Assembly (NCBI GenBank): GCA_017853605.1
Contig: JAFMJG010000004.1
Coordinates: 1-49,110 of the forward strand
Origin: a bacterium
Lineage (GTDB): Bacteria; Bdellovibrionota_C; UBA2361; OMII01
Direction of reading: 5' to 3'
DNA: 49,110 nt
The number at the start of each line of letters is the position of its first letter. Position 1 is the first letter of the stretch. The notes under the pieces were generated by a model. It made no database searches. It was not told the DNA's origin and worked only from the letters and a program-made list of their open reading frames with translations. A program made the position numbers and the translations under genes. Shown in pieces: positions 4,190 to 36,273 of the stretch.

Positions 4190-7100
4190 CTACTCCTTCA
4201 TCCGGACGTAGAGCTCTGCGCGCCTGATCTGCCTGCCCTGGGGCGCGGCTTCCGCCTCTCTCATGAGCACGGGTGCCTTGCGGGCCGGCGGAATCGGGGC
4301 GGGGCGCGGCGCCAGGGCACGCGCTAGCGGAGAGACCAGTGCCCTTCGCGATCGCTCGCGCTCGCCCTTGGCGTGCGCCTCAAGCTCGCCGATGCGGGCA
4401 ACGAGCTCGCGGTACTCCTTCTCTGAGATGCCGAGCGCAATGAGCAGGGCCAGCAGCCGCTGCTTCTTGAGCTGCTCGTGCCTGCGGCTCGTAAGCTGCT
4501 GCATGATGATCGCCCGGAGCCTGTCCTGCGACCTGCGCTTCTTCTTCAGCCGGGCTTCGCGCTGCTCCAGCTCTTCGTCGCCTTGCGCAGTGTCCAGCGC
4601 CTCGATCGCCGCCATCGCCGCCTCGATCTGCTCGATAGCTGAAGTTCTCCCGTGCGGATTGAGGGGTATAGCGCCTGCGGCGAGCGCCTGAGCCTGGCCA
4701 ATGACAGCGGCTTCCCCGTGCTGGATGCCGCCAAGGGGCGCGCCCTGCGCTAGCTCCTCGCCGCTTTGCTCTTCACCGGCACTCTCCCGCATGCGGGGAT
4801 GCTCTGCTGCTGCCACGAAATGCCGCTGGGCGCCGCCCTCCACCAGCATCAGCCTGCGGTCTGTTGCGGCCTCGTCAGCTTCTTTTGTGTCGGCACGCCG
4901 GGCAGTGCGCGAACGGCGAGCCGCTGTTCCTTGTGCGGCGTTGCTTTGGGGCTCCTCGCCCAGCACTCCGGGCTCCTCAAGGCGCGTGATGCTCAAAAGC
5001 TCGGGCATAAGCTCGCCCGCCTGTGCTGCCTGCTGCTCCACAAGGCGCGCGCTCTGGGCAGGCTCCGCAGAGATGCCCTGCGGCGCCTCCTCGATGGCGG
5101 CGGGCTCCCCCATCTTGAGGGTGATGCTGCCTGTCTCCTGCAGGCCGACGGCCTCCTCGTTGCTTGGCACAGCTGCCTCTTCGCCCGAGAGAGCCGTGGC
5201 TCCCGCCTCCTTCAGGCCCACCGGCTCCGGCTGCTTGAAGGCACTCTGCTCAAGCTGGGCAGCCTCAGCATGCTGCGCCTCAGCTCTCGCCTCTCGACTC
5301 ATCTTGCGCTCGGCTACCTTGGCCCTCTCGGCCTCCTCCCCACGGAGGCGTTCCTCTTCGCCCTCCTTGAGGAGGAGCTCCTCCGCCTCCTGCTGCCTAA
5401 GCCGCTCCCCCTCAACGAGGGCACGAATCAGCTCAACGTCCTGCAGCCTCTGCACTTCGGCGAGCTGTAGGCCCTGAAGCGCTGCAGCCTCCGAGAGCGC
5501 CTGGGCCTGGGCGGTTGTGTTCGCCATTGAGTCCGCATCGGCGTGGGCGAGCTTCGCGGCCTCGGCATTTGCGGCGGCGATAGCGTGCGCCTCCACGAGC
5601 GCCACGGCGCGGGCATTGACCTCTGCAGCCGCGCGGGCGGCAGCGTCAGCGATCTCCTCCAAGAGCAGAGTCTCGCGCTCGGCGCGCCGCCTGCGCTCAA
5701 GCTCCTGGACCCTTAGCAGCTCAAGCACGTACGAGTTAGTCTCCTCCTCCCCGAGGCTCATGACTGGGCCTGGGGCGCCCTCGCCTGCGGGCGCGCGGCC
5801 GGGGCCTGGCGGGGAAGAGGGCGCAACGGGGGCGGGGGGCGCTGGCGGGACAACTGGCGGAGGCTGCGGGGGGTTCCTCCTTGAAACGGCGATGAGGCTG
5901 CGCGAGCCCCGGCCGAGCCCCCTGAGCACGTTGCCCCAATCGTTCATGTCTTCAACTAGCTCTTCAGCCGGCGGCGCAGCTTTAGCAAGCTCTACAGGCC
6001 CCTGGGGGTTTTCAGGGCGTTCTCGCGGGGTGTCGCCTTTGCCCTTTTCTGCTTGCTGCGGAGCCCACTGCGAGAGCAGCTCCATGACATACGTAGCTGC
6101 TTCCTCTACCTGCTGGAGGCTTATGGCGTTGCGGATCTGGTCAAGCATGAGGTTGAGCTGCTGCAGGTCGGGCATAGTCGGCTCAATCCCCGCTTTCTGC
6201 AGCGTGGCCCGTGCGTACTCCAACAGCCCCTCTGCCATAACAGCCAGTGCAACTGGCACCGTGGAGCTCTGCTGCTCGCCTGCATCCATGCCACCGCCAG
6301 CAGGCTTAGTCTGGTTGTTCTCAATCGCGAGGGCGACACCCGTTCCCGGCTGCTCGCCTGCAGGCATGGCACCGCCAGCCGGCTTGCTCTCTTTAGCAGT
6401 GGCGACAGGCGCTCCTGGAGTCTGACCAACGGGCACAAACGTTTGGGCCGCCACGCGGGGAGGATTGGGGGGCGTTGAGGCTGGCTGGCCCCGCGGAGCA
6501 AGCTGGCTGGACGCAATAGCGCCCCTGGCGATGGCAGAGGGCAGCTGCCCTGAGATAAAGCCACTTACAGGGAGCTTCACTATCGCCTGATAGACGTTGG
6601 TTCCCTCCTTGGCGCTGAGGTCAAAGAACTTCCGGAGGGCGCCCTCGACCACCTTGGCCGGCACGTTGCCGGTGTACTTCGCTCCCTCAAGGAGCAGCCC
6701 ACCCTGGGCGTAGCCGCCGCCGCTCGCGACCATGTCCTTGATGCCAGACTTGAGCTGGCCGGCGTGGAAGACCACCTCCCGAGCGCCCCCCGCATTGAGC
6801 TTGTTGGCCGTGTTAAAGAAGTTAAATCGCACTCCCCACTTTGAGACGGGGGCGGCGTTCTTGAGCGCTGAGAACACCGGATCCGCCTCGACCCGCACCT
6901 TAAATATGCGTATCGCCGCAATGCCTGAGAGAAGCGCATCAGTCGCTCCCTCAATCAGGAAGTGCCGGGTGCACCCCCATCCGTCCATCTGGGCGGTCGC
7001 GTAACGCACCGTCTTGTCTGTGGCGTTCCAGGCGAGGGCGACCGCGAGGCCCGTGGCTGGAGTTGCGAATACCGACGCTCCAACGACCACAACGACCTTC

Positions 7101-10100
7101 GCTGTGGTGTGCGCAACAGCCGAGCGCCATACGACTGCCTCGTAGTGCTTGAGCGCCTCGCCCCGCACGTGCGACCAGCGCTTGAAGTCATCAATCTTGA
7201 GGTCTCTCCAATCTACTTGGTGGCTCTGCTCCCTCGCTGCGGCGTGCTCTGCGTCATTCGTGTTGAGGGAGAGGAGTCGGCGCTTGCTCTCGAGAATCGC
7301 GCGCAGCGCCTCAACGCCCCGCCGCTCCATGCGACGCTCCGTGCCGCCGAGCTCCCTCATGAAGGAGTTCTGCTGGTCGAGGAGCTCCCTCTGGCTGCTC
7401 ATGACGATCTCGTTGGAGGCGACAACCGCCTGTGCCGCGCCCCTCTCCCAGGACCACGCCTTAAAGAGGCGCTCCCTGTCGCCGTGTTGGACGGAGGAGA
7501 AGTGCTCGTGGTTGGTGCGGGTGCGGCCGAGTCGGCCCTCGAGGTCGATCTTGAGCTCGCGCACCCCGGTCAGCTGCTCTACAAGCCGCTCGCGCGCTGC
7601 GCGGTACTGCGCGAGCGCCTGTGATCCCTCAGAGAGGGCTCTCGACCCCTTCTCAGCAGAGCTGGCAACCATCTCGATAGCCTTGGCATCTGCTTCCCCA
7701 AAGGAGTTGCCGGGAAGGTGCCGCACGAAGCCGGAGAAGCCCTTGGGGGGCACCCGGTCATTTGAGTACTGAAACGAGATCCGCATCTTCTCATCGGAGA
7801 GCTCGTTGAGCGCGTCGTTGTAGAACTTCTTGCAGCTGTCAGGGATGCGCTGCATGGCGGCGTTGTACGCTGTCAGCGCCGCCTCAGACCCCTTCTTTTC
7901 GGCATACTCAAGGGTTGCCTCAGCCCACTCTGAGGCCGCCTTGGCCACCTTGGCCGTCTTGTCGCCCAACTCTACCGCTTTCTTGGCGACATCGGTCTGC
8001 ATCGCCTCATCATAGCGGCTGCGCGTCCAGTCGAGGCTCGCTCGCACCAGCCGTGAGGCGCCAGAGGAGTCAGCCAGCTGCTGCACGCTGTCGAAGGCAG
8101 AGTCCCGCCACTGCCCAAGCCGCTGGCCGACAGCATGGCTCGTGGAGGTGACGAACTCCACCATCTTGTCCTCACAGGTGCTCAGGAACCACGCGGTGTT
8201 CTCGTACCCCAGCGCCAGCGTGTGGGCCGCATCAGAGTCCTTGACGGCCTGCAGCAGCCTCTGCAGCTTCTTAACCTCTTCGCTGTCACGGATGCTCTCC
8301 GCTGTCTCTTCGATCTTCTTTTCGAGAGCCTCTACCAGCTTGGCGCCGCCTTCGCGGGCCTCCTGGGCCTTCACGAGCAGCACGTAACGGACAGTGTGAT
8401 GAGTGTCCCCGCGCTCAATCGCGCGGATCGCATTCTCAAAATCAGACTCGGCTACCTTGCCGCCGCCCTGAAGGAGCTTGCGGATGCTCTCTTCAGACGA
8501 GAAGACGCGGCCGCCAGCGAGGTCCGACTCAAGCGAGCCCGACAGCTGCCCAGACTCAGCCCTGCGGCCTGCCGCAGCCTGCCGGTAGAGGCCCTTGAGG
8601 ATGGTGCTGTGCGCCTCGCTCAGCTTGAGCTCCCGAATTTCGTAGAGCGCAACGTCACGGTTGCTCGGCTTGCCTGGAGCGGTCGGCTCGAGGCGCGAGA
8701 GCAGCGCCGCCACGCTCTTCGCTCCCTTGGCGAGGGGTCCGCTAGGGTCAATCAGACGTGCAGCCTCGGCACGGCTCGCCTCCTCTGCCTGCCTGCGCAT
8801 TAGGGCCTGCAGGTCGAGCCTCGCGAGCAGCTCCGGCGAAAGCCCGTCAGTCAGCTTGGCGATTTTTTTGTCGAGCTCGCGCTCCAGCGCCTTCGCCTCG
8901 CTCTCGTGCCGGGCGATCACTGCCGGATCGCCTGACTGGAGCGCAAAACTGCGCGCCAGCGATGCCTCTCCCAGCCGCGCCACAAAGGGCTGCGAGCCTG
9001 CGCCCCCAGAAGGGGCGTTCAGCTCCTCGGCGAGGCGCTTGCCGAGCGCCTCGAGGCCCTTGCTGTCCTCGGCGATGAGGCGCTCCATTTCGCGCCGCCG
9101 CACATCACGCGCCGCTGGAACCGGAGAGCCAAAGAGCGTCTTAAGATCCTGCTCGCCAGCAAGCAGCGACCCTGCGACACGAACCGTCAGGCTGCCGTCT
9201 CCATGCGTCTGCCGCAGGGCGAGAACCCGCTCCGCAAGCGATAGCCCGCCAGACGCCTTGCGGCACGACTCCAGGATCGTCGCTGCGTTGGCCTCGGTGA
9301 TGCCGAGGCCCTGAATCAGGTCGCTCTCGAGCCGCGCTCCGCGCGCTTGCTGCACGAGCATCGGCAGCGCCTGGACATCCGCTTTCTGAAGCGCTGTCCA
9401 GAGCTCGGCAGCGGCCATCTCGCCCCCTGGAAGCCCAAGCTGCTTGAGGATCTCAGGCTGCTTCGCCGTCACGAGGAAGACCTCGATGCGCGCCAGGAGC
9501 GCGGCACGGTCCCTGTTCTCTTCGTCAGGCGCGGCAGGGTCATACGCGAGCTTGTGGCGCAGCGCCTCAATCTGCTGCGCTGGCGGCAGGGGCTGGCCTA
9601 CCTGCTGCAGCACCCCCTCAAGCCGCTTATCGCCGGATGATGCCGCCCAAAGGGCCTCAATCGACGCTGCTGATTCCTGCGCTGGGTCACGCGAAAAGAT
9701 CCCCTCTACCTTCGAGCGCAGCTCCCCGGCTGTCTGTGTGCCGGTTGCAGAGGCCTCTTCGGCCGAAAGCTTCGCCGTTCGCGCCGGAACTGTCTGCAAG
9801 ACTGCGCTGAGGGCGGCGCTATCGGCGCCCTTGATGGCGCGCGCCTCATCGAGCGCCGAATAGGCCTCGCCGAAGGTGCGCTTGACCGCCATCCAGTCGT
9901 AGCGCTGGCTCGCATACTGGTCGAGCGACTTGTCGACGTACTTGCCCTTGAAGGCACGCTCAAGGCCATCATCGGAGAGCAGATCGCTTACCTGCTTGAT
10001 GGCCGCGTCCTGAGTCAAAGCCAGAGATGCCTGGCGATCGAGGGCCGCCGCCTTAAGCCTTATGGCGGTGTCAGCGAACTGCTTATTAATCCCTGCGGTA

Positions 10101-12193
10101 ATCGCGGTGATCTTCGCCTCGTGCTCGGTCACCTCGTCGGCCAATTCGGCCAAATAGGGCTTGTTAGCCAGCCTCTGTCCCCGGCTCTTCTCGATATCCT
10201 GTTGTAGCTCCTCCACCCGCACCTTGCGGAAGAACGCCTCGCTCGTGCCTGCCTTGATGAGCTCTCCAGTGAGCGCATCAACCTTCTCAATCGCGCGCAG
10301 CTTGACAGACAGCTCGCAGCGCATGCCGTCGGCAAGCGCCCCCTGGCGGGATGCGTGCGCCTGCTGGAATTGGGAGATCAGGGCGCGGTCGGCGCCGGGG
10401 TGCTCCTTCTGGCTCCTGATCGCATCAAGAAGCTCGGCATTGAGCACAGCGTAGTCAACCTGCAGGAGCGCATCACGAGCGTGCTCGCGTCCCGCCCCTT
10501 CACGTTCCGCCTGGACGCGCAGCACATTGAGCGCAGCAGCGCCGTCTTTTCTGGCAGCCGCCAGGGCCACGTCAAATCCCGGCAGGTCTCCGTACGTGGC
10601 GCCCATGGAGCTCACGATACGCGGTATCTCGCCGCGAGCGCCGGGGGAGCGCGTCTTCTCAAGGGCCTCAATCTCTTTCCGTCCCGACACTATTTTTTCA
10701 AGGCTGTCGTGAAGGTGCAGCAAGGGGTCCGGGCGTCCCTGGAGGATCGCGTCTTTCGTCGCCTCATCCGCGCCAAGGAACCGGCGGAGGTGCTTCTCTT
10801 CGCCGGTGTCTTGCTTGAGCAGCTTGAGCGCATCCGCGAGGCTCTTTCCCCTAAGATCTTTGAGCCTTGAGGCAAGCGCCCCAAGGAGCTTTGCCTCGCG
10901 CTCCGCATCCGGAACCCCCGAGAGGGACACCTCGGCATCGCTCAGCCCAAGCATCTCTTTTGAGATACGCTGGACCTCGCTGAAGCTGTTCTCGATCAAG
11001 ATCTTCTTGTCCGCCACCTCAAGCTGAACCCTGCGGGCTGACTCGGTGTCGAGCCGGGCGAGAATGATGCCCTGCTCAGCAGCCACCTGGCCGGTTAGCC
11101 TGGCGAGCTGCTCTGGCGAAAGGAGCTTGGCCTCCACGACCTGGCGCAGCACCTCGCGGTGCGCCTCTGGCGAAGCGCCCACCATGTCCCGCAGCTCAAG
11201 GATCAGGCTTCGCCCGGCGTGCTTTTCGAACGCGTCGAGGTACTTTGAAAGCTGCTCCTGGCCAACCGCCAGCTTGAGGGTTGAGAGAAACTTGATGGCG
11301 GCCTCGGAGGACCCGAGGCTCTCCACCTGTTTCTTGAGCAGCTCAGCCCCTTTTGGCCCCTGCATGATCTCAGGGGCGACCTTTGGGTTAAACTGGATGG
11401 CGTTAAAGAGGTCGCGCTTCTCCTCTGCCCGCCGCAGGAAGTCCTTGCGGTCGGCGTCGAGCCCATCGCTAGCGGCCTGTATCGAGGCGTTCACAGCATC
11501 AGAGAAGAGTCCTGCGGCGGGAGGGGGATCAGGGGTGGCGGCTGCCTCAACGGCTGCGAAGCGTGTGGTGAGCTCCTGCGCCAAGGTGCGCTCCATGACC
11601 TCGGTAGAGATGTTGAGCTTGAGGAGGGTGTCGCCTGCACTCAGGGCTGCGGCGATCTCTTTGGCAGCCTGGGCAACGGCTTCTGGCGAGCGCTGGCCCG
11701 AGGGCCCTCCCGCCGCTTGAAGCTGCTCTATCTTTTCGCTCAGGGACTCTGCAGCCTTCTCGCCGATAACGCTCGCAAGGGCACGAAAAAATGTGGTCTC
11801 ACGGATCGAGGCGCTCCTCTTCTTGCGCTCTTTCTCTGCCTCGTGGGCGATCATCTCGTTGTGCAGGTTTTCGACCCGGCGGCGCTGCTCCTCTGCCGCG
11901 TGCGCGGGAGCGGTCTTGCAGATCGCCGCGGCAAGGCCGAGGCAGATCTGGCGCTCCTGGGCGTAGAGCTGCTCCTCTATTCGCTGGTCAGCGGCGCGAT
12001 CCTGGCCGCTGTTGTGCCGGGCCCGCTCTAGCTTCGACTCGATCACCTTGCCGACTGGACTCGCGTCCTTGGGTTGGGAGAGTTCGGCGACTTCGGGAGC
12101 CAGGCCAGCCTCTTTCGCGGCGAGCTTATCCGGCGCGGCCTGAGGGGATTCCGCCGAGCTTGGGGACACGCTCTTGTTGAGGACTGAGGGCAC
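4190..12193 (-). CDS. Giant 2667-aa Ala/Glu-rich coiled-coil protein, unknown function
   Basis: I do not recognise this protein. It begins with GTG at 12193 and has no signal peptide. Residues about 1-1690 are almost entirely helical, rich in Ala, Glu, Leu and Lys, and carry at least one segment like an annexin-type repeat (around residues 290-340: GSSEAAIKFL, then FEKHAGRSLILELRDMVG). Around residues 1690-1775 there is a hydrophobic stretch (TAKVVVVVGASVFATPATGL and a second helix) that could insert in a membrane. A glycine-rich segment follows (about 1800-1880). Two copies of KPAGGxMxAGEQ lie in a flexible linker, then a Pro-rich hinge near residues 2070-2110. A long Glu/Ala/Arg coiled coil (about 2120-2280) and a basic helical C-terminus end the protein. 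The frame is unbroken and strand bias agrees with the neighbours. It could be a cytoskeletal scaffold or a large effector; neither is shown. Confidence 0.9.
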   Translation of the reverse strand: MPSVLNKSVSPSSAESPQAAPDKLAAKEAGLAPEVAELSQPKDASPVGKVIESKLERARHNSGQDRAADQRIEEQLYAQERQICLGLAAAICKTAPAHAAEEQRRRVENLHNEMIAHEAEKERKKRSASIRETTFFRALASVIGEKAAESLSEKIEQLQAAGGPSGQRSPEAVAQAAKEIAAALSAGDTLLKLNISTEVMERTLAQELTTRFAAVEAAATPDPPPAAGLFSDAVNASIQAASDGLDADRKDFLRRAEEKRDLFNAIQFNPKVAPEIMQGPKGAELLKKQVESLGSSEAAIKFLSTLKLAVGQEQLSKYLDAFEKHAGRSLILELRDMVGASPEAHREVLRQVVEAKLLSPEQLARLTGQVAAEQGIILARLDTESARRVQLEVADKKILIENSFSEVQRISKEMLGLSDAEVSLSGVPDAEREAKLLGALASRLKDLRGKSLADALKLLKQDTGEEKHLRRFLGADEATKDAILQGRPDPLLHLHDSLEKIVSGRKEIEALEKTRSPGARGEIPRIVSSMGATYGDLPGFDVALAAARKDGAAALNVLRVQAEREGAGREHARDALLQVDYAVLNAELLDAIRSQKEHPGADRALISQFQQAHASRQGALADGMRCELSVKLRAIEKVDALTGELIKAGTSEAFFRKVRVEELQQDIEKSRGQRLANKPYLAELADEVTEHEAKITAITAGINKQFADTAIRLKAAALDRQASLALTQDAAIKQVSDLLSDDGLERAFKGKYVDKSLDQYASQRYDWMAVKRTFGEAYSALDEARAIKGADSAALSAVLQTVPARTAKLSAEEASATGTQTAGELRSKVEGIFSRDPAQESAASIEALWAASSGDKRLEGVLQQVGQPLPPAQQIEALRHKLAYDPAAPDEENRDRAALLARIEVFLVTAKQPEILKQLGLPGGEMAAAELWTALQKADVQALPMLVQQARGARLESDLIQGLGITEANAATILESCRKASGGLSLAERVLALRQTHGDGSLTVRVAGSLLAGEQDLKTLFGSPVPAARDVRRREMERLIAEDSKGLEALGKRLAEELNAPSGGAGSQPFVARLGEASLARSFALQSGDPAVIARHESEAKALERELDKKIAKLTDGLSPELLARLDLQALMRRQAEEASRAEAARLIDPSGPLAKGAKSVAALLSRLEPTAPGKPSNRDVALYEIRELKLSEAHSTILKGLYRQAAAGRRAESGQLSGSLESDLAGGRVFSSEESIRKLLQGGGKVAESDFENAIRAIERGDTHHTVRYVLLVKAQEAREGGAKLVEALEKKIEETAESIRDSEEVKKLQRLLQAVKDSDAAHTLALGYENTAWFLSTCEDKMVEFVTSTSHAVGQRLGQWRDSAFDSVQQLADSSGASRLVRASLDWTRSRYDEAMQTDVAKKAVELGDKTAKVAKAASEWAEATLEYAEKKGSEAALTAYNAAMQRIPDSCKKFYNDALNELSDEKMRISFQYSNDRVPPKGFSGFVRHLPGNSFGEADAKAIEMVASSAEKGSRALSEGSQALAQYRAARERLVEQLTGVRELKIDLEGRLGRTRTNHEHFSSVQHGDRERLFKAWSWERGAAQAVVASNEIVMSSQRELLDQQNSFMRELGGTERRMERRGVEALRAILESKRRLLSLNTNDAEHAAAREQSHQVDWRDLKIDDFKRWSHVRGEALKHYEAVVWRSAVAHTTAKVVVVVGASVFATPATGLAVALAWNATDKTVRYATAQMDGWGCTRHFLIEGATDALLSGIAAIRIFKVRVEADPVFSALKNAAPVSKWGVRFNFFNTANKLNAGGAREVVFHAGQLKSGIKDMVASGGGYAQGGLLLEGAKYTGNVPAKVVEGALRKFFDLSAKEGTNVYQAIVKLPVSGFISGQLPSAIARGAIASSQLAPRGQPASTPPNPPRVAAQTFVPVGQTPGAPVATAKESKPAGGAMPAGEQPGTGVALAIENNQTKPAGGGMDAGEQQSSTVPVALAVMAEGLLEYARATLQKAGIEPTMPDLQQLNLMLDQIRNAISLQQVEEAATYVMELLSQWAPQQAEKGKGDTPRERPENPQGPVELAKAAPPAEELVEDMNDWGNVLRGLGRGSRSLIAVSRRNPPQPPPVVPPAPPAPVAPSSPPGPGRAPAGEGAPGPVMSLGEEETNSYVLELLRVQELERRRRAERETLLLEEIADAAARAAAEVNARAVALVEAHAIAAANAEAAKLAHADADSMANTTAQAQALSEAAALQGLQLAEVQRLQDVELIRALVEGERLRQQEAEELLLKEGEEERLRGEEAERAKVAERKMSREARAEAQHAEAAQLEQSAFKQPEPVGLKEAGATALSGEEAAVPSNEEAVGLQETGSITLKMGEPAAIEEAPQGISAEPAQSARLVEQQAAQAGELMPELLSITRLEEPGVLGEEPQSNAAQGTAARRSRTARRADTKEADEAATDRRLMLVEGGAQRHFVAAAEHPRMRESAGEEQSGEELAQGAPLGGIQHGEAAVIGQAQALAAGAIPLNPHGRTSAIEQIEAAMAAIEALDTAQGDEELEQREARLKKKRRSQDRLRAIIMQQLTSRRHEQLKKQRLLALLIALGISEKEYRELVARIGELEAHAKGERERSRRALVSPLARALAPRPAPIPPARKAPVLMREAEAAPQGRQIRRAELYVRMKE

Positions 12194-12546: not shown

Positions 12547-15096
12547 ATGAAGTGCGCCACTCCTGTTCGTATAGTCCTGTCTGCGGCAGCGGCACTATTT
12601 TCAGTCGCGGCGGCGGGCACAGAGGCCGACGCCCAGCCTAACCGGTACACGCCGGCGTTTTTGACCGGCCCCGGCGTGGGCGGGTCTCCACACGTCTCGG
12701 CCTTTACGAGCTCCACTGGGCTGATCGTGAGCTCGATCAACTTTTTCGCCTTTGAGGACTTCTTCCGCGGCGGAGCGACCGTCGTTGGCTGCGACGTTAA
12801 CGGCGACGGCACCCAGGACATCGTAGCCGGGGCGGGATTCGGTGGCGGGCCGCGCGTCTCCTCATTCGACGGCAAAAAGATGCAGATGGGTGTTCCTGCC
12901 CAGAGCGCCGTCATCAACAACTTCTTTGCGTATGCCATAACGTTCACCGGCGGAGTCTACGTGGGGTGCGCGGACATGAACGGCGACGGCATCGACGATA
13001 TTATCACAGGAGCCGGCGAGGGTGGTGGGCCGCACGTGAAGGTATTTGCCGGCCCCTCGGGCTCAGAGATCGCATCCTTTTTTGCATACGACACAACCTT
13101 CCCGGGCGGCGTGCGAGTTGCTGGCGGCGACGTGAACGGCGATGGCCGCATGGAGATCATCACCGGTGCCGGACCAGGAGGAGGCCCAAACGTCAGGGTA
13201 TTCTCGCCCTCAAACGGGTACGGGGCACCCCTGAGCTCTTTCTGGGGGGTCGATCCACTTTTCCGCAGCGGCATCTTCGTCGCATCCGGCGACGTTGACG
13301 GCAACGGCACCGACGAGATCATCGTTGCGCCTGGAGCGGGAGGGTCTCCCGTGCTTAACTTCTTCAACGGCGGAGGCACAGTCTTGAGGAGCTTCGAGGC
13401 CTTCACCCCCGGCTACCTGGGAGGCTTGACGGTCGGCGCCACATCGCGCAAGTTCGGCCCGCAGTTCGCGCAGATCTCGGTCGGCACGTTCGGCGCAGGC
13501 GCCTCGGTGCGCGTCTACCAGCCACACACATCGATTAACCCTATAACGAGCATTCAGGCCTACCAAAACTTTAACGGGCAGGTCCTCGTCGCTGGGTTCT
13601 CCCTCGACAACTCGTTGAGCTGGACGCCTACCCCAACGGTAACGCCGACGGCAACGAACACCCCGACTCCAACACACACCCCGACTCCCACTTCAACTCA
13701 TACTCCCACGCCGACGCACACGCCAACACCAACGTTTACTAGGACGCCGACGGCCACGCCGACTGCGACTAACTCCCCCACCGGAACGCCTCCGGCAACG
13801 AGCACGTCAACGCCGACGTTTACTGCGTCGCCGACCTTCACGGCGTCGCCGACGTTCACCGCAGTGGCGACGAACACCGGCACGCCGACGTTCACGGCGT
13901 CGCCGACGTTCACCGCGATTCCAACCCGCACCGTCACCGGCACGCCCACCACGGGCCAGACCCAGTGCTCGGACGGCATCGACAACAACGCCAACGGCCT
14001 GATCGACCTCGCTGATCCGGGCTGCAATGGCAGCAGCCAGACGCCATCCGAGAACGGTGCGCCGTCTACCTCCGGCGTCACCGTCTCGCTCGCCGGAATC
14101 TACAACAACGGGGATGGAACCTTCACCGCCTACATCAGCTACAACAACACCACCGGCCAGTCTGTGACGCTCCCGGCGGGGCTCGACTCGCTCACCAAGA
14201 ACTTCTTTGCGCCGTCACCGGCAAACCGCGGGCAGACGTCCGTATTCCTGCCAGGATCGAATCCAGCCGCCATCGCCATAACTTGGGACGGCCGGCCGCT
14301 CGTGTACTCGGTGGCGACATCGGGCTCCGTGCCCTCGATCCTAAACTTCAGCGGCACAAGCACCCCGGTGCTCTCGCTGGTTGAGCCGCAGGCCGAGTGT
14401 CTCCTGACCACAGACGGGACCATCTTCCTTGCGGTCATGGGGTACAACAATCCCAACGACTTTGAGATTAAGATCCCAGTTGGCACCCGGAACTTCTTCT
14501 CGCCCGGAGCGCAGGACCGCGGCCAGCCAACCTCCTTCTTCAAGGGGCTCGTCAAGGGCGCGTTCACGGTCGAGTCGAACGTGCTCCTTGAGTGGAAGAT
14601 TACCGGCAAGTCGGCGAAAGTCAGCTCCTCTACGCCGAGCTGCGGCTGTCCCGCAACAGCCGGCGTGGATATCCGCAAAGAGCTCAACGCCGAAGCGCTC
14701 GCGCTCAACAAGCTTGCGCAGCAGGCAGCGTCACTCATCAAGTCGGTCGGCACCCCTGACGCGCTGCGCAGCTTCGACGACGTGAAGAAGCGCGCTGACG
14801 GCAACCTCTCTGCGATTCAGTCGCTGACAGCCTCGATCCCTAACGTGATTGTAAGCTGCCCAACGACGCCGACAGGGTGCACCCGCATCGACAACCAGCC
14901 GTTCATCGACGGCGTGCAGGGCCAGCTCAACGTGGCGCTCCACATCGTGAAGCGCGCAACCGCGCGGGCGAACTTCCTCAAGACTGGGGCCACGGTCAGG
15001 AATGATCCACTCGTCGTCAAGGCGGAGAAGCTCTACAACGCTGGCGTGGCGACGCTGAAGCAGTACCCACGCTTCAGCACCTCGTGCCCGAGGTAG
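12547..15096 (+). CDS. Secreted FG-GAP propeller protein A with Thr-Pro stalk
   Basis: The 849-residue protein starts with a signal peptide (basic start, hydrophobic core, likely cleavage after ADAQ near residue 30). Residues about 30-355 form FG-GAP/VCBS-type propeller blades, with Ca-binding loops [27 protein letters not shown] and DVDGNGTDE, each followed by IxxGAGxGGGP-like strands. A Thr/Pro-rich stalk covers about residues 360-470. Then comes a [20 protein letters not shown] Ca/disulfide motif and a C-terminal domain with two beta-rich parts and a helical end containing Cys pairs ([17 protein letters not shown]). Such proteins are typically extracellular or surface-displayed and may mediate adhesion or ligand binding; no enzyme motif was seen. 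The next gene is a close paralog. Confidence 0.9.
13067..13484 (+). repeat. 418-bp tract identical to 15960-16377 in the paralog
   Basis: By direct base-by-base reading this tract is identical to 15960-16377 (constant offset 2893), with the first mismatch at 13485 (C) versus 16378 (A). Flanking coding sequence of the two paralogs shows frequent synonymous and amino-acid differences. It encodes propeller blades 3-4. Confidence 0.9.
13624..13956 (+). repeat. Thr-Pro low-complexity stalk region of protein A
   Basis: About 110 codons of degenerate short repeats encode [17 protein letters not shown] units. Several near-identical 18-21-bp units encoding PTFTAS occur toward the 3' end. Such tracts usually form extended, often glycosylated spacers in secreted proteins; glycosylation here is an inference. 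This is not a CRISPR array: there are no unique spacers and the frame is continuous. Confidence 0.85.
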
Positions 15097-15439: not shown

Positions 15440-18043
15440 ATGACGTACGCCACTCCCGTTCGCTTTATTGTTTCTGCAGCTGTAGCTGTATTCTCTGTGG
15501 CCGCGGCAGGCACAGACGCTGCAGCACAGTCTGACCGCTATACGCCAGCGTTTTTGACCGGTGCTGGCGAGGGTGGTGCCCCACACGTGACGGCTTTTAC
15601 GACCGCCACGGGGCTCGTCGTAAACTCCATGAACTTTTACGCCTTCGAGGAGTTCTTCCGGGGCGGAGCGACTGTCGTTGGCTGCGACGTGAACGGCGAC
15701 GGCACCCAGGACATCGTAGCCGGGGCGGGATTCGGTGGCGGCCCGCGCGTCTCCTCATTCGACGGCAAAAAGATGCAGCTCGGTGTTCCTGCCCAGAGCG
15801 CCGTCATCAACAACTTCTTCGCGTATGACGTGGCGTTCACCGGCGGTGTGTACGTCGGGTGCGCGGACATGAACGGTGATGGCATCGACGACATCATTAC
15901 CGGAGCAGGCGCCGGTGGCGGGCCGAACGTCCGGGTATTTGCTGGCCCCTCGGGAGCCCAGATCGCATCCTTTTTTGCATACGACACAACCTTCCCGGGC
16001 GGCGTGCGAGTTGCTGGCGGCGACGTGAACGGCGATGGCCGCATGGAGATCATCACCGGTGCCGGACCAGGAGGAGGCCCAAACGTCAGGGTATTCTCGC
16101 CCTCAAACGGGTACGGGGCACCCCTGAGCTCTTTCTGGGGGGTCGATCCACTTTTCCGCAGCGGCATCTTCGTCGCATCCGGCGACGTTGACGGCAACGG
16201 CACCGACGAGATCATCGTTGCGCCTGGAGCGGGAGGGTCTCCCGTGCTTAACTTCTTCAACGGCGGAGGCACAGTCTTGAGGAGCTTCGAGGCCTTCACC
16301 CCCGGCTACCTGGGAGGCTTGACGGTCGGCGCCACATCGCGCAAGTTCGGCCCGCAGTTCGCGCAGATCTCGGTCGGAACGAGCGGCGCAGGCGCGTTGG
16401 TGCGCGTCTACCAGCCACACATATCGATTAATCCTATTGCGAGCATTCAGGCCTACCAGAACTTTAACGGGCAGGTCCTGGTCGCCGGGTTTTCCCTCGA
16501 CAATTCCCTCACATGGACCCCAACACCAACGGTAACTCCAACGTCGACGCCGACCAACACTCCGACGCCCACGAGCACCCCGACGTCGACCCCAACAAAC
16601 ACCCCTACCTTCACAAGCACGCCAACGAGAACACCGACGGCAACAGCAACGAGCACGCCGACCTTCACAAGCACTCCCACGGCGACCCCAACTGCGACCA
16701 ACTCGCCGACAGGAACACCCCCGCCTACCAACACGTCAACTCCGACGTCTACGTCTACGGCAACGCCGACGTCAACTCCTACGTCAACGCCGACGCCCAT
16801 GTCCACGCCGGTGACTACGGGCACGGCGACATCGACGCCCACGCCAACTTCTACGCCAACGGCAACTCCAACCGGCACGGTGACGGGAACTCCAACCACA
16901 GGCACAACCCAGTGCTCTGACGGCATCGACAACAACGGCAACGGCCTGATCGACCTCGCCGATCCGGGCTGCAACGGCAGCAGCCAGACACCATCCGAGA
17001 ACGGTGCGCCGTCTACCTCCGGCGTTACGGTCTCGCTCGCTGGAATCTACAACAACGGTGACGGAACCTTCACCGCTTACATCAGCTACAACAACACCAC
17101 CGGCCAGCCTGTGACGCTCCCGGCGGGGCTCGACTCGGTCACGAAGAACTTCTTCGCGCCGTCGCCAGCGAACCGCGGCCAGTCCTCGGTGTTCCAGCCA
17201 GGATTCAATCCGGCGGCTATCAACATCACCTGGGACGGGCGGCCGCTCGTGTACTCGGTGGCGACATCGGGCGCAGTGCCCTCGATCCTTAACTTCAACG
17301 GCACAAGCGCCCCCGCTCTTGCGCTGGTTGAGCCACAGGCTGAGTGTCTCCTGACTACCGACGGGTCTATCTTCCTGGCGGTAATGGGGTACAACAACCC
17401 TAACGACTTCGAGATCAAGATCCCGGTTGGCACCAGGAACTTCTTCTCTCCAGGAGCGCAGGACCGCGGCCAGCCAACCTCCTTCTTCAAGGGGCTAAAC
17501 AAGGGCGCGTTCACGGTCGAGTCGAACGTGCTCCTCCAGTGGACCGTGACCGGCAAGTCAGCAAAGGCGAGCACTGCAACCCCGAGCTGCGGCTGCCCTG
17601 CCACCGCAGGCCTGGATATCCGCAAGGAGCTCAATGCCGAGGCGCTGGCTCTCAACAAGCTTGCGCAGCAGGCCGCATCCCTCATCAAGTCGGTGGGAAC
17701 TCCGGCCGCACAACGCAGCTATACGGATGTCCAGAAGCGCGCTGACAGCAACCTCTCGACTATCCAGTCGCTGACAGCCTCGATTCCAAACGTGATCGTG
17801 AGCTGCCCGGCGACGCCGACAGGGTGCACGCGCATCGACAACCAGGCGTTTATCGACGGCGTGCAGGGCCAGCTCAACGTGGCGCTTCACATCGTAAAGC
17901 GCGGCACTGCCAGGGCAAACTTCCTGAAGACCGGAGCAACAGTGAGGAACGATCCCCTCGTCGTCAAGGCGAACAAGCTCTACAACGCCGGCATGCTGAC
18001 GCTGAAGCAGTACCCACGCTTTAGCACCTCGTGCCCGAGGTAG
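15440..18043 (+). CDS. Secreted FG-GAP propeller protein B with Thr-Pro stalk (paralog of A)
   Basis: The 867-residue protein has the same architecture as its upstream neighbour: signal peptide (to about residue 30), FG-GAP propeller with four DxNGDG-type Ca loops (to about 355), Thr-Pro stalk (about 360-490), the [20 protein letters not shown] motif, and the same C-terminal beta plus helical domain ending in [12 protein letters not shown]. The stalk is about 20 residues longer than in A and is otherwise diverged from it, while blades 3-4 are identical at the DNA level. The same start context (GGGGATCAA before ATG) supports this ATG. The pair clearly arose by tandem duplication. Function is probably surface or extracellular binding; the ligand is unknown. 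Confidence 0.9.
15960..16377 (+). repeat. 418-bp tract identical to 13067-13484
   Basis: Second copy of the identical tract, in the same frame and domain position of the paralog. The sharp edges and lack of any silent difference inside suggest recent gene conversion or recombination between the tandem copies. Confidence 0.9.
16517..16909 (+). repeat. Thr-Pro low-complexity stalk region of protein B
   Basis: About 130 codons of [18 protein letters not shown]-type repeats. The unit order and codon choice differ from the stalk of A (more TST units, no PTFTAS block), showing that this part has evolved by repeat slippage rather than by the conversion that unified the propeller segment. Confidence 0.85.
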
Positions 18044-34391: not shown

Positions 34392-36245
34392 CTAGGCAGC
34401 AGGGAAGTAGAGGGATATGTTGGTCCCTGCCTGGCGCCTGGAGGCGAGCGTCACCGCGCCGCCATGCTTCTTCATCACCGACTTGGCCATCAGCATGCTG
34501 AGCCCGAGCCCCCGGCCCAGCTGGGTTCCCTTCGTTGAGAAGGATGCCTGCGGCACGCCAAAGTCCTCTCCAGGCGCTAGCCCCTCACCGTGATCGACAA
34601 TGCTGACGCGGCCATAGCTGCCCGGGGCTATCTCAAGAAGCTTTGCGTCTTCGGCGACCTGAACCCGATCCACGTGAATGACGATGAAACGCTCCGGCAG
34701 CCCCTGCATCGCGTCGATAGAGTTCTCGCACAGCTCCAGGAGAAGCTGCGCCACGGTAAAGTCGGCGAGCTCAACCTGGACATCCTCGTTGCAGACAAGC
34801 TCGAGGTGGCACTCGCCGCCATGCGTGCTTGCCAAAAGCTCCATGACAGCCTCGACGCAGGAGCGAAGCGACTTGCGGGTCCTCGCGCAGCCCTCATCGC
34901 CTGCCAGCGCGATCACGCGCTTTGAGAGCGCAAGCCCACGATTTGCCGCTTTCCGCAGGATGGTAAGCAGCTCCTCCACGCTGGATTCGCCGTCGCTGCC
35001 GGCCGTCTTCTGCTCGACCAGCGCCGCACACCCCAGGATTGATCCGAAAATCGTGTTGAAGTCGGCTGCAGAGGAACTCGCCAGCCGCGCGAAGGAATCC
35101 TCCCCGCTCGGCTGGTGAGGCAGCGCCCCCTCCCTGTCCGCTTCCCCAGGCGCCGATGGCCGGGCTGGCGAGAGGGGCCGCGCCGCTATCCACGTGGCCG
35201 CCTCTGCGAGCGATGCCGCCTCGTAGTCCGCCTTGGCGTCGCAGATGCCATCGTCCCCTCCCCGTCCCGTCCTGACCAGGACAGCCGCGCAGCCGCCATT
35301 TTTGCCGAGCTGGACATCAGAGCTCATGTCCCCCACCACAACACTCTGCGATAGGTCAACGTTCAGCTCGCGCTCTGCGCGCTTGAGGAAGTATGGGAAG
35401 GGCTTGCGGCATTCGCAGCCGTCGGCCTTCGAATGAGGGCAGAAGTAGATGCGATCGATGGCGCAGCCCGCCTTGGACGCCTGCCTCATCATCTCCCGAT
35501 TGACCGCGAAGAAGTCCTCGCGCGAAAAGTATCCCAGGCCGATGCCGGGCTGGTTCGTGACAACAACGACGCGGTATCCGCGCTCCTTGAGCGCCTTGAG
35601 CGCAGCAAAGCTCCCAGGGATCTCCCTGAACTTCCCTGGCTCGCTCAGGTACTCCACGTGCTCGTTGATGGTCCCATCACGGTCGACAAACACGGCGGGC
35701 CGGCGCTCGAAAGCCAGATGCTGCCCATCCTCGGTCCTCGCCGCAATCTCGATCCGCTCAATCGTGCCGGTGGTTGAGTGTCCGGCGCGAAACGGCACAA
35801 GCCTAACCTGCCCCCCGTGGCTCTCAACGATCTGCTTGGAGGAGAGCTGCTCGGCTGCGTAGTCGCCGGCCTTGATGTACAGGTCTGGCTTGAGGAGCTC
35901 CACGTTGAGGTTGTTGTTTCTCTCCGAGAAGACGAACACGTGGCCAACCGCCTGGAGCCCGGCAAGGACCTCCGCCCGCTGGCGCTCGCCGTTGATGGGC
36001 CTGGATTCTCCCTTGTTGGCCTTGACCGAGCCGTCCGAGTTGACCCCGACAAAGAGCACATCCACCTCTGCCCGAGCCCGCTCCAGGTACTCCACGTGCC
36101 CAACGTGGAGAATATCGAACACTCCCGAGGTAAATCCGACGCGCTTTCCCGCTGCCCGGTACCCCTCCCTCAGCGCGACGGCTGCCTCTCTGGTAACTAT
36201 CTTATTCATCATGCTGGCTGTCGGGTCCCGCAGGCTCTCCGTCAT
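34392..36245 (-). CDS. Fusion: heptose-P nucleotidyltransferase + heptose-bisphosphate phosphatase + histidine-kinase-like ATPase
   Basis: One unbroken 617-codon frame joins three modules. Residues about 13-165 are an RfaE2/HldE-C-type nucleotidyltransferase with FTSGVFDILHVGHVEYL (HxGH at 47-50) and IKAGDY. Residues about 183-350 are a GmhB-type HAD phosphatase: VFVDRDGTINE (Asp188, Asp190), VVVVTNQPGIG, the zinc set C269-x-H271 with C277-x-C279, and VVGDMSSD. Residues about 385-617 resemble an NtrB/hybrid-kinase core. The position expected for the phospho-acceptor His is Ala394 (AADFNTIFGSILG), while the ATP site looks intact: N508 (ENSIDAM), D551HGEG, FSTKG, and G577RGLGLSM. The first two modules are known steps to ADP-heptose for LPS core. 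The third is unexpected. The start is uncertain: the ATG at 36245 has AGGAGG directly abutting it, and Met12/Met13 (MNKIVTRE) fit the family start. Confidence 0.9.
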   Translation of the reverse strand: MTESLRDPTASMMNKIVTREAAVALREGYRAAGKRVGFTSGVFDILHVGHVEYLERARAEVDVLFVGVNSDGSVKANKGESRPINGERQRAEVLAGLQAVGHVFVFSERNNNLNVELLKPDLYIKAGDYAAEQLSSKQIVESHGGQVRLVPFRAGHSTTGTIERIEIAARTEDGQHLAFERRPAVFVDRDGTINEHVEYLSEPGKFREIPGSFAALKALKERGYRVVVVTNQPGIGLGYFSREDFFAVNREMMRQASKAGCAIDRIYFCPHSKADGCECRKPFPYFLKRAERELNVDLSQSVVVGDMSSDVQLGKNGGCAAVLVRTGRGGDDGICDAKADYEAASLAEAATWIAARPLSPARPSAPGEADREGALPHQPSGEDSFARLASSSAADFNTIFGSILGCAALVEQKTAGSDGESSVEELLTILRKAANRGLALSKRVIALAGDEGCARTRKSLRSCVEAVMELLASTHGGECHLELVCNEDVQVELADFTVAQLLLELCENSIDAMQGLPERFIVIHVDRVQVAEDAKLLEIAPGSYGRVSIVDHGEGLAPGEDFGVPQASFSTKGTQLGRGLGLSMLMAKSVMKKHGGAVTLASRRQAGTNISLYFPAA

Positions 36246-36273
36246 CCTCCTACTAGACCAACTTCCCCCTTTC

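Follow-up and report, generated by a model that had tools for sequence, protein, structure and literature searches.

An RfaE2-GmhB heptose enzyme fused to a histidine-kinase-like module with a variable phosphoacceptor position

The 49,110-nt stretch of bacterial DNA analyzed here (the window) carries on its reverse strand a gene that joins two enzymes of ADP-heptose synthesis to a histidine-kinase-like C-terminal module. The gene stands alone, with a divergent peroxiredoxin-like gene on one side and a convergent penicillin-binding-protein-like (PBP) gene on the other. Its features, in window coordinates, are as follows.

34392..36245, minus strand: whole gene, RfaE2(HldC)-GmhB-DHp-CA fusion of 617 aa; 617 codons open, 0 internal stops
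35748..36167, minus strand: RfaE2/HldC adenylyltransferase, residues 27-166; TIGR02199 E 1.7e-48; PDB fold match to HldC 5xf2, 42% identity
35187..35702, minus strand: GmhB-type heptose bisphosphate phosphatase, residues 182-353; DxD and CxH...CxC zinc set; PRK08942 E 7.4e-49; fold match to E. coli GmhB 3l8e, TMt 0.86
35088..35186, minus strand: flexible linker, residues 354-386; unconserved, predicted disordered; 26-45 aa in relatives
34881..35087, minus strand: DHp-like helical hairpin, residues 387-455; acceptor position Ala394 (codon 35064-35066), with H+1 Asp395 and H+4 Thr398 kept
34395..34880, minus strand: CA/HATPase_c (GHKL) domain, residues 456-617; HATPase_c E 2e-11; G2 box RGLGLS
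34734-34736, minus strand: N box, E504
34722-34724, minus strand: N box, N508
34593-34595, minus strand: G1 box, D551

The true start of the gene is uncertain: the annotated ATG at 36245 is abutted by AGGAGG (window 36209-36250, minus strand), and relatives begin at an alternative start, M12/M13 (36212/36209), where the true start may lie. Elsewhere in the window, a tandem pair of genes on the plus strand (12547-15096 and 15440-18043) encodes closely similar long proteins, rich in integrin-like DVNGDG repeats and long Thr-Pro-rich stretches, and looks like a recent duplication, and a 2667-codon frame on the minus strand (4190-12193) is rich in Ala and Glu and has no obvious function.

A reading made earlier from sequence only had proposed that a single frame joins an RfaE2-type nucleotidyltransferase, a GmhB-type phosphatase and a kinase-like core, and both profile and structure tests bore this out. 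The HxGH, DxD and zinc Cys/His motifs it listed are all present in the sequence. Pfam-type models matched CTP_transf_like at residues 39-138 (E 2.9e-12) and Hydrolase_like at residues 279-348 (E 4.4e-13). The adenylyltransferase domain has the HxGH motif as HVGH and belongs with RfaE2/HldC, matching TIGR02199 over model positions 4-143/144 with 164 bits, under the equivalog cut-off of 181.5. Likewise, the phosphatase domain has DRDGT together with C269, H271, C277 and C279 and belongs with GmhB, its PRK08942 match of 165.7 bits falling slightly under the cut-off of 178. In the outgroup fusion (L019, genome G012), the GmhB part lacks three of the four zinc ligands (SPHTK...SKW), and the zinc site is lost there.

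The same genome encodes an RfaE1-like protein (contig C115; 322 bits, under the cut-off of 345), an HldD in two pieces that is split at the ends of contigs C218 and C19, and a pair of PF01075 heptosyltransferases (C23); no second RfaE2 was found in it. Since RfaE1, HldD and heptosyltransferases are present, we regard the fused gene as an ordinary enzyme of the LPS-heptose pathway that supplies RfaE2 and probably also GmhB, and not as part of a defence system. A second ADP-heptose set, comprising RfaE2, a 528-aa RfaE1/RfaE2-like protein and two heptosyltransferases, was observed beside the standard set in one relative (G015:C102:15-7789).

For the C-terminal part, a HATPase_c match at residues 498-616 scored 44.8 bits, above the curated cut-off of 26.4, and models of PRK13557/VirA/CckA-type kinases covered residues 377-616, so that the DHp segment was matched as well as the ATPase. 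The module is thus of CckA/FixL-like, AHDFNN type and has no receiver domain, which corrects the earlier description of a hybrid-kinase-like core. An AlphaFold model of the full-length protein, at a modest pLDDT of 63, contained domains matching GmhB 3l8e and HldC 5xf2, a linker of low confidence, and two long helices (388-414 and 423-448) followed by a GHKL alpha/beta domain. Folded alone (pLDDT 70), the C-terminal module matched ZraS, FixL, CckA, RetS and HK853, but the full-length TM reached no more than about 0.5 and the rmsd was large, which probably reflects a different relative placing of DHp and CA. We base the kinase assignment on profile and fold evidence combined. This combined evidence ruled out a chance HATPase match.

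The same three-domain order was found in ten genomes of the genus and in G012, a genome of another family of the same order. Nine of the genus copies are full-length, and a contig end divides the tenth (L018). The two genus genomes without the full architecture are only 60 and 70% complete. Mis-assembly or a frameshift as the source of the fusion was ruled out by the identical architecture in eleven genomes, the ten of the genus being in synteny. No further full-length fusion was found beyond these eleven among 46 genomes of the phylum, while thirteen other genomes of the order carry the RfaE2-GmhB pair alone as one gene of about 350 aa. A C-terminal query gave no match to a separate downstream kinase gene, a possible fusion source, in the available flanks of these two-domain relatives. 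Distribution beyond this small phylum was covered by a single scan of genome contigs, which reaches close relatives. Records with a name belong to uncultured bacteria, filed under Deltaproteobacteria or Proteobacteria, whose isolate names point to freshwater. Plasmid records yielded no fused homologue, with the best match covering 47% of the query.

The kinase domains of all eleven proteins formed one clade against 35 other kinases (support 100/99), which disfavoured independent fusions in G012 and the genus even though G012 did not group with the genus in the tree of enzyme domains. These trees thus favour a single fusion origin, and one fusion followed by loss or transfer, or else long-branch attraction, may explain the discord of the enzyme tree.

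At the phosphoacceptor position, the ten genus members have A, H, H, Y, A, R, R, R, G and A, and the outgroup G012 has H. The claim of the sequence-only reading that Ala replaces the acceptor His thus holds for the window protein (Ala394 in SAADFN), but the genus as a whole shows five different residues there, Ala among them. The histidine expected of a histidine kinase is replaced in eight of the ten genus members and kept only in L010, L011 and the outgroup protein L019; by comparison, it is present in each of 36 related kinases that were sampled across the genus, order and class, in the same and neighbouring genomes. In variability this column ranks above 89% of those in the C-terminal part, whereas the acid at H+1 is kept in 10/10 and Thr or Asn at H+4 in 9/10 genus members. 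Because the outgroup and two genus members have His, we consider that His was probably ancestral and was lost repeatedly; the same residues could also stem from a single loss followed by regain in L010 and L011. In a second kinase-like protein encoded by the window genome, 661 aa long and with a receiver-like C-terminus (L122; G000:C116:14262-14621, minus strand), both the acceptor His (VAPRLSEAF against the usual VAHDFNNLL) and the N-box Asn (SLCLIVMNSAEAY) seem to be missing.

The N box of the fusion proteins opens with Glu instead of Asn, so that the NxxxN pattern of histidine kinases is broken at its first position. It reads ELCEN in nine of the ten genus members and ELGEN in the tenth, with Gly first in G012, and E504, N508, D551 and G553 are invariant throughout the genus (10/10). 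None of the 36 related kinases has Glu at the first position (32 Asn, 4 Ala). The four N, G1, F and G2 boxes reported earlier were recovered with two amendments, namely that the N box begins with Glu and that the F box is a weak match which differs from one relative to the next. With an F box that has degenerated in several members and G1/G2 glycines lost in L015 and L016, ATP binding may be weak, as in DivL. Four genus members also carry a long kinase (L070, L073, L088 and L100) with an intact His and Ala for the first N-box Asn, a lineage-specific feature.

Glu at the first N-box position recurs in the window genome in two GyrB-like proteins and one MutL-like protein, so named from their motifs, and in one HATPase_c_2 and one short HATPase_c protein. 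As in GHL ATPases, the fusion protein has a Glu four residues before the Mg-binding Asn (E504/N508), a spacing also seen in the GyrB-like and MutL-like proteins of the genome; the GHL transducer domain with its switch Lys is absent, the chain ending with CA at residue 617 and none appearing in the model. Other true kinase families that autophosphorylate also carry Glu at the first N-box position, and so do the two His-bearing genus members. The equivalent residue in CpxA is Asn356, which helps position the acid beside the acceptor His and whose change to Tyr gives a kinase-deficient protein; in GHKL ATPases a conserved Glu occupies this position and serves as general base (PMC3904827). The loss of the acceptor together with the gain of Glu suggests a changed activity, more than simple decay, although the N-box Glu in itself does not prove ATPase activity.

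Sequence identity of the window protein to genus members was 37-58% in DHp vs 57-75% in CA, making DHp the less conserved part. Across the genus, 69 of 231 C-terminal columns were invariant, and no frameshift or stop occurred in the 11 sequences. Pairwise dN/dS, where computable, was about 0.08-0.13 in CA and 0.06-0.19 in DHp, values that are rough since dS was near or beyond saturation in most pairs. As judged from these comparisons, the kinase core is under purifying selection.

Since His is usually lost while the ATP pocket is kept, the C-terminal part is probably an ATP-binding regulatory part and hardly a signalling kinase. Our best reading, to which we give about even chances, is that of a tethered, dimerising, ATP-binding pseudo-histidine kinase that regulates ADP-heptose supply and is possibly an ATPase. 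An RfaE2 and GmhB enzyme of ADP-heptose synthesis for LPS would carry a C-terminal regulatory module derived from a CckA/FixL-type kinase. We infer that this module dimerises via the DHp hairpin and binds Mg-ATP, and that in the window species it would not autophosphorylate on histidine. ATP occupancy or slow turnover at CA, with E504 as candidate general base for hydrolysis, would change the dimer state, which in turn would tune ADP-heptose output to ATP supply. ATP sensing by the module is plausible given its invariant Mg/ATP residues. With a linker that is variable and predicted disordered, the kinase core is unlikely to sense heptose through signals passed along a helix, and the same disorder counts against the best reading itself, as it makes tight allostery harder. 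A more specific proposal, that a two-component kinase core was captured by a metabolic enzyme and converted to a GHL-type ATPase or ATP-gated switch, with the acceptor His dispensable and the N-box change from Asn to Glu fixed, so as to place LPS heptose supply under direct ATP-dependent control in cis, is put forward tentatively, and we hold it possible but doubtful.

The main rival to this best reading is a DivL-like reader, in which a response regulator docks on DHp-CA and has its phosphate read, or removed, there, placing ADP-heptose under two-component control with no need for autokinase activity. DivL, whose acceptor is Tyr or Ala, needs no kinase activity to sense DivK~P (PMC4211667), and the Tyr of L012 and the Ala of the window protein match it in this respect; the H+1 acid and the H+4 Thr/Asn, of which H+4 governs HisKA phosphatase activity (PMC8292422), also persist despite the loss of the acceptor. 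We nevertheless consider it unlikely: none of the conserved neighbours was seen to be a response regulator, DHp is less conserved than CA, and a fixed E504 would go unexplained. The less likely alternatives include a role as a scaffold only, in which the hairpin keeps the two enzymes dimeric and the ATP site survives as a structural remnant, perhaps still binding ATP but to no regulatory effect. The long, variable, disordered linker and the degenerate F box would suit this, but a scaffold does not call for invariant N508, D551 and E504 or for a CA more conserved than DHp, and we rate it as rather improbable. The GHKL kinases SpoIIAB and PDHK phosphorylate Ser/Thr with a Glu general base, and the module could still phosphorylate, either on His where it is kept or on Ser/Thr of its own enzyme domains. 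Because L010, L011 and L019 keep His, autokinase activity is possible in two genus members and the outgroup, and the N-box Glu resembles the GHKL Ser kinase type, exemplified by the HATPase_c_2 protein L001; with an unconserved acceptor and no partner gene nearby, continued phosphorylation seems even more improbable than a scaffold.

The five different acceptor residues and the drift of linker and lid could instead point to an accidental fusion whose decaying remnant is tolerated by an important enzyme. This explanation, also among the less likely, is largely refuted by purifying selection, given intact frames in all 11 sequences, the invariant columns and dN/dS of about 0.1, and we judge it very unlikely. 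The sequence-only reading had also raised immune or phage-defence signalling by heptose metabolites, an analogy that is the one point in its favour. PADLOC models matched 0 families at E ≤ 0.01, and the neighbourhood is one of cell-shape and housekeeping genes, parts of the order LOG, methyltransferase, fusion, PBP, bactofilin, rplS, mreB, mreC and mrdA being kept in all longer loci. With ADP-heptose/LPS genes present and no second RfaE2 in the genome, this idea found no support, and we hold it to be scarcely credible.

Pseudo-histidine kinases are known in signalling networks; with one tethered to a biosynthetic enzyme, the fold would have found a new use. Since one site varies among His, Ala, Tyr, Arg and Gly while another is fixed as Glu, the genus offers a natural series for testing how a kinase turns into a non-kinase. 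Should the module sense ATP, LPS core precursors would have a new control point.

Searches of the open-licence literature found no paper on a kinase-heptose enzyme fusion, and comparison with known systems was made part by part. With HldC/RfaE2 and GmhB the protein shares domains, catalytic motifs, best PDB folds (5xf2 and 3l8e) and the presence of pathway genes in the genome; here the two enzymes form one chain, as is common in the order, and are followed by a third module, absent from HldE and GmhB of E. coli. CckA/FixL-type histidine kinases share profile and fold matches to DHp and CA, but here sensor and receiver are missing, the acceptor His is replaced in 8/10 members and the N-box Asn has become Glu. 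GHL ATPases (GyrB, MutL and Hsp90) and GHKL Ser kinases (SpoIIAB and PDHK) likewise place Glu four residues before the Mg-binding Asn, whereas the overall sequence, the DHp hairpin and the fold matches side with histidine kinases. Like the pseudo-histidine kinase DivL of Caulobacter, which has Tyr, or Ala in one homologue, the protein combines a non-His acceptor with a kept DHp-CA core; DivL has PAS sensors and the partner DivK, whereas the partner here is two metabolic enzymes in cis. The parts thus belong to known families, and it is their combination, together with the acceptor variation and the N-box Glu, that makes the variant new.
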